Both the position numbers and the translations under genes were made by a program. The notes beneath the pieces are model-generated. The model was not told where the DNA came from. It worked only from the letters and a program-made list of their open reading frames with translations, and ran no database searches. Positions 55,815-62,858 of a stretch of 64,000 nt of DNA are shown here, one piece after another; the stretch's first letter is position 1; each line of letters begins with the position of its first letter. This DNA is from Geothrix sp. SG200 (lineage in GTDB: Bacteria; Acidobacteriota; Holophagae; Holophagales; Holophagaceae). The DNA is taken from NCBI RefSeq assembly GCF_022808935.1, contig NZ_JAKZFR010000005.1:186001-250000 (forward strand), in the 5' to 3' direction.

Positions 55815-56039
<225 letters not shown>

Positions 56040-60170: not shown

Positions 60171-60569
60171 TCAGTCCGCGAAGGCGCTGGTGCAGAGGGG
60201 GGTGCGCTCCTGGCGGCGGCGCTCGGTGATGCGGTTGCGCTCGTCCACGAAGACCACCTTGGGCGCCACCGTCTCGGCCTCCTCGGCGGTCATCCAGCCG
60301 TAGGCGGCGATGATCACCAGGTCGCCCTTCTGGACCAGGTGGGCGGCGGCCCCGTTGATGCCCACCTCGCCGGAGCCCGGGACCCCCGGGATCACATAGG
60401 TGGACAGGCGCGACCCGTTGGTCACGTCGTAGATGTCGATCTTCTCGTTCTCCATGAAGCCGGCGGCCTCGATGAGCAACGGATCGAGCGTGATCGACCC
60501 CACGTAGTCCAGATCGGCCCTCGTCACGGTGGCGCGATGGATCTTACCGAGCAGGAAGTGGCGCAGCAT
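60171..60569 (-). CDS. panD: aspartate 1-decarboxylase (pyruvoyl enzyme)
   Basis: 132 residues from the ATG at 60569, which follows ggaggatgc; the ORF extension upstream reads through non-family sequence. It makes beta-alanine from aspartate for pantothenate. [20 protein letters not shown] then DYVGSIT shows the self-cleavage site G24-S25 at the canonical position; the new Ser25 becomes the pyruvoyl group. Later [15 protein letters not shown] and [26 protein letters not shown] and YGWM are typical. panC and panB lie upstream on the same strand, separated by two secreted-protein genes and an element copy. Confidence 0.97.
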
Positions 60570-60614
60570 GCATCCTCCGGTCCAGGCTCTCAAGGGAGTC
60601 CCGGCCAACGCATA

Positions 60615-60656
60615 AGGATGGACCCAGGTGTACCCTGGGTCCATCCTCGATTTTTA
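60615..60656 (+). terminator. strong hairpin with T tract on the + strand
   Basis: AGGATGGACCCAGG (60615-60628), loop tgtac, CCTGGGTCCATCCT (60634-60647), then cgattttt. A perfect 14-base stem followed by a T run on the + strand, although both flanking genes are on the minus strand. Read from the minus strand it lies just after the stop of the 181-residue secreted protein with no T tract, so it may serve both directions imperfectly. Confidence 0.65.
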
Positions 60657-60662
60657 CCTGAT

Positions 60663-61208
60663 CTAGTTGAACAGCACCACGTGGAGATCCACGCCCAGCC
60701 GGGGCGGGGCCACCGGGGGCGGGGCCACGGGCAGGCGGAAGGCGCCTTCCAGGTCCAGGCGGGCCCGGGGGTCGCGGATCTGGCGGAGCACCCAGCGGCC
60801 CTCGATGAAGACGTAGCAGCGGGAGGGATCACCGGGCACCAGGGCCACGTAGTGCCGGTCATCGCCGGAGCGCCAGTAGCCGTCCATCCAGACGGGGGCC
60901 CGGTAGCGGCGGTAGCGGCGCTCGCCCCGGTCGTCGTCATCATCGCGCTCGTAGCGGTGGCGCTCGTACTTGCGCGCCTCCTTGTCCCGCTCCTTCCAGT
61001 ACTTGCGCTCGGCCTTGTCGCGTTCCTTCCAGTACTTCCGGTCTTCGCGGTCATCCCGGCGGTCATCCCTGCGGTCATCCCGCCGGTCGTCATGCCGCTC
61101 CTCCCGCTCGCCGCGCCAGCCCCGGTGGTCGTCGGGACGGGCCGTGGCGGGGGGAGCAGCCAGGGAAACGGCCGCCAGGAGGGCGGCGCTCATCACGTGG
61201 CGAAGCAT
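60663..61208 (-). CDS. secreted, highly charged repeat protein (GVDLHVxLFN family, member 1)
   Basis: 181 residues from the ATG at 61208 (gaggaggtttg before it). Signal peptide LRHVMSAALLAAVSLAAPPA TA. The middle is extremely charged with repeats: DDRR several times, then KYWKERDKAERKYWKERDKE. The C-terminal third has APVWMDGYWRSGDDRHYVAL, FIEGRWVLRQ and ends PPRLGVDLHVVLFN. The neighbour gene at 61221-61601 shares GRW-x-LR and the same C-terminal tail, so the two are tandem paralogues. The compact C-terminal domain after a disordered linker suggests a periplasmic or surface factor; function unknown. Confidence 0.7.
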   Translation of the reverse strand: MLRHVMSAALLAAVSLAAPPATARPDDHRGWRGEREERHDDRRDDRRDDRRDDREDRKYWKERDKAERKYWKERDKEARKYERHRYERDDDDDRGERRYRRYRAPVWMDGYWRSGDDRHYVALVPGDPSRCYVFIEGRWVLRQIRDPRARLDLEGAFRLPVAPPPVAPPRLGVDLHVVLFN

Positions 61209-61220
61209 CAAACCTCCTCG

Positions 61221-61601
61221 CTAGTTGAACAGGGCGACGTGGAGGTCCACGCCCACCCGGGGCAGGGGCACCGGCGGAGGCGCGGCGGGCATGCGGAGGA
61301 CATCGCGCACCTCGGCCTGGACGCCCACGGAGAATCCCTTGCGGAGCTCCCAGCGGCCATCGATCAGGAACCAGGCGCGGTCGGTGTAGCGGGGATCCAC
61401 GGCGATGTAGGGGCGCTCGGGCAGCCGGGCGCCGAACTTCTTGGCCAGGCCCGGGGGCATGCCGCCCTTCTTGGCCAGGCCCGGAGGCACGCCGTCCCCC
61501 CCGCGGGCATGCCCGGGAGGGCCATCATGACCGTGCTTCCCATGGCCGCGCCCCTGGGGCATGGCGATGAGAGCCGCGGAAATCAGGATCGGGACGAGCA
61601 T
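61221..61601 (-). CDS. small secreted protein (GVDLHVxLFN family, member 2)
   Basis: 126 residues from the ATG at 61601 (gggaggttcc before it). MLVPILISAALIAMPQG is a signal-like start, followed by a His/Gly/Lys-rich linker with PPGLAKK twice. The C-terminal domain RPYIAVDPRYTDRAWFLIDG RWELRKGF ends PLPRVGVDLHVALFN, the same tail as member 1. Twelve bases separate the two genes, so they are co-transcribed. This family is not one I can name. Confidence 0.65.
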   Translation of the reverse strand: MLVPILISAALIAMPQGRGHGKHGHDGPPGHARGGDGVPPGLAKKGGMPPGLAKKFGARLPERPYIAVDPRYTDRAWFLIDGRWELRKGFSVGVQAEVRDVLRMPAAPPPVPLPRVGVDLHVALFN

Positions 61602-61739
61602 GGAACCTCCCGGAATGGGTCCCCGGACGGCAGCCCGGAGGACGCCGCCATTCTAACCCCCGGCCCTGGCGAAGGCCTCCATCCATGGGAGGAGGCGTGG
61701 GTAGTCCGAAAGGTGAGGGGCTCTTTCTGTGCAATGCCG

Positions 61740-61904
61740 TTTTCGCCACCGATTTCGCTGATTCCAGTGATTAAAAGCGATTCCCGGCTACAGCGCAGCA
61801 TGGGCTCCAAGACTTCCGGCAACGCCGGAAGCGGCCTCCAGCCGGCCCATGCAGGACACATCCGAGCCCCAATCAGCGCCATCGGCGAAATCGGCGGCTG
61901 AAAA
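61740..61904 (+). repeat. intergenic element, copy 4 (central hairpin absent)
   Basis: Left end TTTTCGCCACCGATTTCGCT and right end GCGAAATCGGCGGCTGAAAA. The order is the same as in copy 2, but gcagcatgggctcc joins directly to aagacttccgg, so the arms and loop of the central hairpin are exactly missing. The CTTCCGG/CCGGAAG stem, ggcccatgc block and both ends remain. It ends 20 bp before the panC stop. Similarity with copy 1 continues past the right end (cctttcgccgag). The preceding 61602-61739 has no gene. Confidence 0.85.
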
Positions 61905-61924: not shown

Positions 61925-62806
61925 TCAGGCGCCCTGGCCTCCACTGGTTCCCGTCCCGTTCGCGGGAGGGGTCAGGAGGACGTTGTCGATGAGGCGGGTG
62001 CTGCCCAGGTAGGCGGCCACGCAGAGGGCGGCGGAGCGGTCCACCGGGCTCTGCAGGGGCTCCAGGGTCTGGGCGTCCACCAGCTCCAGGTACTGGATGG
62101 AGTCCGCCCCGGTCATGAGGGTCCGGGCGAGCTCCAGCAGCTTCGCCGGTTCCCGCTCCCCCTCGTCGAAGGCGGCCTTCGCGGCCAGCAGGCCCTGGCT
62201 GAGGGTCAGGGCGCGCTTCCGGCCATCCTCATCCAGGTAGGTGTTGCGGCTGCTCAGGGCCAGGCCGTCCGCCTCGCGCACCGTGGGCACCACCACCACG
62301 TCCACGGTGAGGTTCAGGTCCCGGGCCATGCGGCGGATCACCGCCGTCTGCTGGAAGTCCTTCTGGCCAAAGAAGGCCAGGTCCGGCTGCACGATGTTGA
62401 AGAGCTTCGCCACCACCGTGGCCACGCCCCGGAAGTGGCCGGGCCGGTAGCGGCCGCAGAGGGTGTCGGCCAGGTGGCCGGGCTCCACATGGGTCTGGAA
62501 GCCCGTGGGGTAGATCTCGGCGACCTCGGGCATGAACAGCACCGTGGCCCCGGTCTCGAGGCAGAGGTTCTGGTCCCGCTCCAGGTCCCGGGGGTAGCTG
62601 GCCAGATCCTCGCCGGGGCCGAACTGCGTCGGGTTCACGAAGATCGACACCACCGTGGCGTCGCAGCGGGCAGCGCTCTGGCGGATGAGGGCCCCGTGGC
62701 CCTCGTGCAGGAACCCCATGGTGGGGACGAAGCCGATGCGCTTGCCCTCGTCCCGCAGGGGTCTCAGGAGGGCGCGGAGATCAGCAATGGAACGGACGAC
62801 TCGCAT
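61925..62806 (-). CDS. panC: pantothenate synthetase
   Basis: 293 residues from the ATG at 62806. Condenses pantoate and beta-alanine with ATP, through a pantoyl adenylate. Signatures: RIGFVPTMGFLHEGHGALIR (first nucleotide motif, HEGH), VVSIFVNPTQFGPGEDLASY PRD, FRGVATVVAKLFNIVQPDLA FFGQKDFQQ (GxKDxQQ), and VVVVPTVREADGLALSSRNT Y (ADGLAxSSRN, KMSKS-like). A C-terminal Gly/Thr tail follows. It lies 52 bp after panB on the minus strand, the order panB-panC. Confidence 0.97.
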   Translation of the reverse strand: MRVVRSIADLRALLRPLRDEGKRIGFVPTMGFLHEGHGALIRQSAARCDATVVSIFVNPTQFGPGEDLASYPRDLERDQNLCLETGATVLFMPEVAEIYPTGFQTHVEPGHLADTLCGRYRPGHFRGVATVVAKLFNIVQPDLAFFGQKDFQQTAVIRRMARDLNLTVDVVVVPTVREADGLALSSRNTYLDEDGRKRALTLSQGLLAAKAAFDEGEREPAKLLELARTLMTGADSIQYLELVDAQTLEPLQSPVDRSAALCVAAYLGSTRLIDNVLLTPPANGTGTSGGQGA

Positions 62807-62858
62807 GGACAAAAGCGGGATCCTTCAGAAAGCGCCTGTCAGTTTACCAAGGGCGCGA

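Follow-up and report, generated by a model that had tools for sequence, protein, structure and literature searches.

Two small genes lie in the middle of a pantothenate gene cluster in Geothrix sp. SG200, and their place raises the question of whether they serve that pathway or have come to rest there by accident. In the 64,000-nucleotide stretch of DNA analyzed here (the window), the open reading frame (ORF) list and Pfam matches give the minus-strand gene order panB, panC, Y, X, panD (Table 1). A preliminary description, made from the letters alone, had read X and Y as tandem secreted paralogues with a shared C-terminal tail on unrelated, variable, low-complexity arms. It suggested a surface or mineral-interacting function, placed the pair inside the pantothenate cluster, and named a profile search and a structure prediction as checks. 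Its reading of the letters holds: both genes are present on the minus strand between panC and panD, and the sequence contains the C-terminal ends GVDLHVVLFN (X) and GVDLHVALFN (Y), the common GRW-x-LR, and the doubled YWKERDK of X and PPGLAKK of Y.

Good ribosome-binding sites precede both genes. The X ORF spans 60663 to 61211 if a TTG start is used, but a better start is the ATG found three bases further in, at 61208, and behind GAGGAGG; Y begins with an ATG behind GGGAGG. A 520-amino-acid open frame (60339 to 61901, plus strand) runs antisense through X and Y and looks like a by-product of high G+C content. A palindromic repeat (CTTCCGGC..GCCGGAAGCGGCC..GGCCGGCCCATGC) is interspersed in the window at 55948, 58076, 60074, and 61813 (four copies, compared with 0 in 100 shuffles), and its exact core occurs five times genome-wide. 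One copy of the repeat sits between panC and Y.

Table 1. Features of the X/Y locus and its neighbors, in window positions
Feature	Positions	Strand	Basis
panD (aspartate decarboxylase), neighbor	60171-60569	minus	PF02261, E 2.9e-47
pan-like hairpin with two bulged A's, holding the panD ribosome-binding site and start codon; edge of the slot	60567-60615	minus	alignment, covariation
X, predicted secreted protein of 181 aa with a charged arm and a C-terminal domain	60663-61208	minus	ORF and alignment
C-terminal domain of X, common to Y, 66 aa	60666-60863	minus	alignment, profile match, model
Charged arm of X, residues 24-105, partly helical in the model	60894-61139	minus	sequence, model
Likely signal peptide of X, ending ATA before RPDD	61140-61208	minus	N terminus by eye
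Y, predicted secreted protein of 126 aa with PPGLAKK repeats and a C-terminal domain	61221-61601	minus	ORF and alignment
C-terminal domain of Y, common to X, 66 aa	61224-61421	minus	alignment, profile match, model
Two PPGLAKK units of Y, residues 39-55	61437-61487	minus	alignment, model
Likely short signal peptide of Y, clearer in the relatives L074, L076, and L077	61554-61601	minus	by eye
panC (pantoate-beta-alanine ligase), neighbor	61925-62812	minus	PF02569, E 1.3e-105

The shared C-terminal domain

The last 67 residues of X and Y are homologous. Profile-profile comparison of the two gives an hhalign probability of 99.16% (E 3.3e-19), and the Smith-Waterman score of X against Y is 151, whereas 1000 shuffled versions of X score 31.1 ± 5.2 and at most 60. 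In the search of their own genome, X and Y match at E 2.6e-12, and the next matches to Y after X have E values of 0.125 and 2.36, so that no third copy was found. The N-terminal parts alone (residues 1 to 115 of X and 1 to 60 of Y) score 24 against 21.8 ± 3.9 for shuffles, of which 268/1000 reach that value; because the score is no better than that of shuffles, these parts are not detectably related. The description of X and Y as tandem paralogues with one conserved C-terminal domain and unrelated N-terminal parts is therefore supported.

Purifying selection acts on both domains, with a median dN/dS of 0.209 in the Y domain (171 pairs of 19 sequences) and 0.126 in the X domain (253 pairs of 23 sequences) and with all pairs below 0.5; 4 of the 23 distinct Y and 5 of the 28 distinct X sequences, being outliers or of another domain length, had been set aside from these sets.

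Structure prediction indicates a confident small domain in Y. The AlphaFold model, built on the Y alignment, has 72 of its 126 residues at a pLDDT of 90 or more and predicts a helix (residues 50 to 56, inside the second PPGLAKK unit), three strands (65 to 68, 75 to 80, and 83 to 88), a helix (92 to 102), and a strand (121 to 124). The X model has the same order of elements at lower confidence (mean pLDDT, 67) and an extra helix in the arm (53 to 81). Because of the strand at 121 to 124 of the Y model, the GVDLHVxLF tail would contain the final strand of this domain. A beta-barrel signal at the LFN end was considered and rejected, since that strand belongs to the small domain in the model. No clear match to the domain emerged from the PDB: Foldseek returned nothing under E 0.001 for either model, the best VIA-align Z scores (3.4 and 3.1) were to unrelated proteins, and a PDB sequence search with Y alone gave no meaningful match.

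N-terminal parts and the mineral-binding suggestion

Both proteins are probably secreted, as had been proposed; their export is likely judging from N termini in which signal peptides were recognized by eye. What follows the signal peptide differs between them: the PPGLAKK part of Y is missing from X, where a charged arm and a WMxGYW-like segment stand instead. In an 83-residue cut nearly identical to the X arm of Table 1, 33 Lys and Arg and 29 Asp and Glu residues make 75% charged, and in 28 distinct X proteins, with the arm cut by a motif rule, 53 to 75% of arm residues are charged. In X the arm varies more than the domain, with mean identities of 0.75 and 0.89 in 9 aligned proteins. That both arms are variable is nevertheless not supported, for in Y arm and domain are equally conserved (0.73 and 0.74 in 15 aligned proteins), PPGLAKKGG-x-PPG-x-AK is invariant in the same 15 proteins, and all 23 distinct Y proteins have two or three PPG(L/I)AK units. 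By these alignments the Y linker is conserved across the family, with PPGLAKK among the most conserved parts of Y, and is not a free low-complexity arm.

These arms bear directly on the suggestion that X and Y interact with minerals, their charged or His/Lys-rich arms binding to iron oxides or to other extracellular surfaces. Geothrix reduces iron, and the charge density of the X arm and the likely signal peptides would both suit such a role. The X arm is nevertheless near neutral (net −2 to +6 in the 28 proteins), histidine is not a conserved feature of the Y arm (23 distinct proteins have between 0 and 4 in the 45 residues that precede the domain), and nothing points to transport through the outer membrane. 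This pattern does not support an arm that binds metals or interacts with minerals, and we regard that function as improbable.

Distribution and history

The 77 genomes of the window's taxonomic family were searched with Y and with the X domain at E 0.01. Each query matched 38 of the 77 when weak matches were included; without the weak ones (G042 and G071 for Y, G036 and G069 for the X domain), 36 genomes are carriers, 21 with Y, 32 with X, and 17 with both. Among 47 Geothrix genomes, 16 have both genes, 15 have X only, and 1 has Y only. Across the phylum, with at most 15 candidates scored per genome, a domain profile matched 31 of 396 Acidobacteriota genomes, of which 23 are in the window's family, 3 are strong Y-type matches outside it (G186, G210, and G287), and 5 are weak matches outside it that we do not count (G126, G174, G286, G353, and G397). 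The nearest named relatives are in Geothrix species. A scan of named genomes with a single-protein query, which reaches close relatives only, yielded 14 loci labeled Geothrix, Holophagaceae, Acidobacteria, or Thermoanaerobaculia; the profile search covered Acidobacteriota.

The family is thus wider than this strain, with 36 carriers among 77 genomes and a few further Acidobacteriota, and for the tail, Pfam, NCBIfam, and the fold searches yielded no domain of established role. The window's Y falls in no Pfam family, the one Pfam match of X is a borderline motif, and NCBIfam gave nothing meaningful for either protein. A search of plasmids with a distant Y found only two unrelated Aeromonas stretches (E 0.6 and 1), and among viral contigs 600 stretches match a pattern but none is a relative of X or Y. 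The letters PPGLAKK were not found in a literature search, and the titles and abstract openings of papers on Geothrix secreted proteins, on CigR/RcnB, and on RcnB with nickel and cobalt hold nothing on the family. A likely exported family of Geothrix and relatives, without a name in the libraries searched, is now defined.

In a tree of the domain, X stands on one side and Y on the other of a branch with a support of 100/100. The tree is unrooted and was built from 66 columns of 45 distinct sequences (24 X, 18 Y, and 3 Y from outside the family); it has an unsettled bootstrap and leaves out the pair of G054. Y without X occurs in one genome each of g7 and g8, in one of the two g5 genomes, in one Geothrix genome, and in the three strong matches outside the family, and X was found only in g1 and g5. 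Because Y without X is the more widely spread, we infer from this distribution, the tree being unrooted, that Y is the older gene and X a duplicate of it. Y has probably been lost in many Geothrix genomes, given that 16 of the 47 have both genes, 15 X only, and one Y only. The family offers a clear duplication in which the domain stayed constant and the arms differ, and its genomes, which carry Y alone, X alone, the two together, or none, form a natural panel.

The gap between panC and panD

Of the 36 carriers, 33 have X, Y, or both inside the panC-panD gap of a single contig, at a panC-panD distance of 496 to 4206 nt. The three exceptions are G007, whose panC sits at another place of the contig, and two genomes, G025 and G054, in which no contig was found to carry both panC and panD. 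In 24 of the 77 family genomes panC and panD stand together and have neither X nor Y between them; the gap measures 102 to 252 nt in 18 of these, and the other 6 have longer gaps or other cargo; in another 17, panC and panD are apart or their arrangement is not settled. The longer gaps were examined together with the gaps beside X in G021 and G043. By Pfam matches they hold a Gp49 gene with an HI1420-type antidote (G037), a PIN gene with Phd/YefM (G042), a TrwC-like protein (G044), TPR repeats (G070), and, beside X in G043, AbiEii with a DUF6088 protein that is AbiEi-like below its cutoff. The ORFs scanned from the gaps of G046, G021, and G065 matched no Pfam family. Large unnamed ORFs also lie in the panC-panD gap of relatives (the varying gap content was seen at loci L107, L108, L109, L110, L111, and L131). 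Because its content varies among X and Y, a short gap, toxin-antitoxin genes, and other cargo, we regard the panC-panD gap as a slot with turnover.

So constant a place could mean selection for coexpression with the pan genes, and this speaks against an incidental location. X and Y would then be coexpressed with panB and panC and aid control of the pathway, export, or PanD maturation; the steady panB-panC spacing (∼49 nt in most loci with both genes) and the position in 33 of 36 carriers accord with this. Against it, panC and panD do without X and Y in the 24 family genomes mentioned above, and six Y loci from beyond the family (L075, L076, L077, L099, L101, and L102) are free of pan genes over the 3 to 10 kb examined; L075 and L102 look like one place. 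In addition, X and Y are likely exported, and the Pan enzymes are cytoplasmic. A tie to pantothenate is not borne out by these loci, and we think such a role very unlikely. The place of X and Y among the pantothenate genes looks incidental.

A slot that holds toxin-antitoxin pairs in relatives might equally be thought to hold X and Y themselves as conflict or defense cargo. The Gp49/HI1420-type, PIN/Phd, and AbiEii genes share the same gap in G037, G042, and G043, and X and Y occur singly or together, but PADLOC has no match for either, PHROGs gives best E values of only 0.5 and 0.6, viral contigs hold no relative, the domains are under purifying selection, and the proteins are likely exported, all of which makes this reading a poor prospect. 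The bolder form of it, in which X and Y would be a new exported-domain family whose fold the PDB so far lacks, traveling as exchangeable cargo of a panC-panD hotspot and serving conflict or envelope defense rather than housekeeping, has an equally slight chance of being right.

An RNA leader before panD

The slot is bounded on the panD side by a leader that is conserved with or without X and Y (44 distinct leaders). Its second hairpin (Table 1) keeps two bulged A's, the first present in 44/44 of these and the second in 16/16 leaders chosen from them. Covariation was assessed on the same number, 16 of the 44, hand-picked for diversity: 99.4% of 160 cells are paired, and two pairs show compensatory change on both sides. 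The covariation score was reached by 0/500 shuffles, compared with 108/500 for the number of changed pairs and 500/500 for the number of pair types. A further (first) leader hairpin lies at 60615 to 60647, upstream of the hairpin in Table 1. On the plus strand, against the direction of the pan genes, this hairpin also has the form of an intrinsic terminator; 0.9 such sites would be expected by chance in the region.

A model of the leader matched 47 of the 396 Acidobacteriota genomes at E 0.01. Within the window's family it matched 33 of 39 genomes, each time at the start of panD (33/33); of the six that it missed, three (G048, G001, and G002) had no panD found either and three (G050, G051, and G075) had one. 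Ten of the 14 genomes matched outside the family were examined. The best and third best matches, in G359 and G153 of one genus (L146 and L147), lie before panB; for the second best (G118) and seven others, stretches of about 1.2 to 1.5 kb were examined and contain no pan gene. We consider that the place matters more than the X/Y family, as a turnover slot before panD that is edged by an RNA leader.

A proposed role for X and Y

The explanation that we prefer, and to which we give somewhat less than an even chance, is that X and Y are exported envelope proteins that work like RcnB and CigR proteins, Y being the older and X its duplicate, and that their location among the pan genes is incidental. 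Y would represent the older form, a small exported envelope protein with a signal peptide, PPGLAKK repeats, and a compact domain in the order helix, three strands, helix, strand. X would have come from Y through a single tandem duplication on the Geothrix branch, keeping the domain while a highly charged arm and the WMxGYW-like segment replaced the PPGLAKK part. At the envelope, where X and Y may have an ordinary accessory role, the folded end of either protein may contact a partner or ligand, with the front part as a spacer or contact arm, as in the small periplasmic RcnB and CigR proteins. Genes would come and go in the panC-panD gap, and X and Y would be there by accident. The homology, the well-supported branch with X on one side, the purifying selection, the constant location, and the changing content of the slot are what the data show; export, the envelope role, the RcnB/CigR-like way of working, and the direction from Y to X are inferred.

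Comparison with known systems

RcnB (PF11776) is a periplasmic nickel and cobalt homeostasis protein. X and Y resemble it in being small, with a likely signal peptide, a charged or His-rich front, and a short C-terminal domain, and their front parts, as we see them, recall RcnB and CigR. Membership of the RcnB family was nevertheless rejected by sequence. PF11776 matched nothing in the window's own genome, nor X or Y by hmmscan at E up to 10, and as a control it matched in Escherichia coli, Caulobacter, and 9 of 396 Acidobacteriota genomes. Against ten acidobacterial RcnB proteins hhalign probabilities were 0.64% for Y, 1.29% for X, and 2.58% for the domain (0.6 to 2.6% overall), compared with the 99.16% between X and Y. 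The Val-Asp-Gly turn of RcnB was aligned onto the FLIDGRW hairpin of Y, at a probability that is meaningless by itself. Unlike RcnB, X and Y have an extra C-terminal strand (GVDLHVxLF), and the neighbors scanned are panB, panC, and panD only.

For CigR, the likeness comes from an alignment. A Y profile run against PDB sequences listed two chains, of which the first was 4ew5, which we take to be CigR; it aligns with Y at residues 35 to 54, the PPGLAKK stretch, at E 0.63, which is chance level and not significant. The C-terminal part of Y is unaligned with 4ew5. An acidobacterial RcnB protein has this chain as its second match and aligns with the chain's C-terminal part (E 0.31). A CigR-like protein would have a PPG(L/I)AKK stretch and behind it an RcnB-type domain; PPGLAKK is present in Y, not in X, and the C-terminal part is unmatched to RcnB. 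The RcnB and CigR structures were not among the listed Foldseek and VIA-align matches, an absence that carries no weight. The CigR match may serve as a lead and is no sign of kinship, and we would not file X and Y under RcnB or CigR. The WXXGXW repeat (PF12779) is borderline: with the cutoff at 18 bits, the window's X reaches 18.6 to 18.7, whereas the domain alone scores 17.2, below it, and at E up to 10 the repeat was found in four of the nine X proteins and in none of the 15 Y proteins.

A further parallel to a known system concerns the leader only. In the account of Weinberg et al. (2010; PMC2864571), the pan motif is a stem with two bulged A's located before pan genes. By that account, the panD leader is like the pan RNA motif (RF01749) in being a stem with two invariant bulged A's upstream of a pan gene. 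It is unlike the motif in that it scores nothing with the Rfam model, and a tandem copy of the same kind is not demonstrated in it. RF01749 matched 0 of 47 Geothrix genomes at E up to 1 and none of the panD leaders tested, and the controls matched in Bacillus subtilis and Bacteroides ihuae. The leader looks like a diverged pan motif that Rfam's model misses in these genomes; we take it as a diverged pan RNA, which may be worth more than the X/Y family and merits a separate study.
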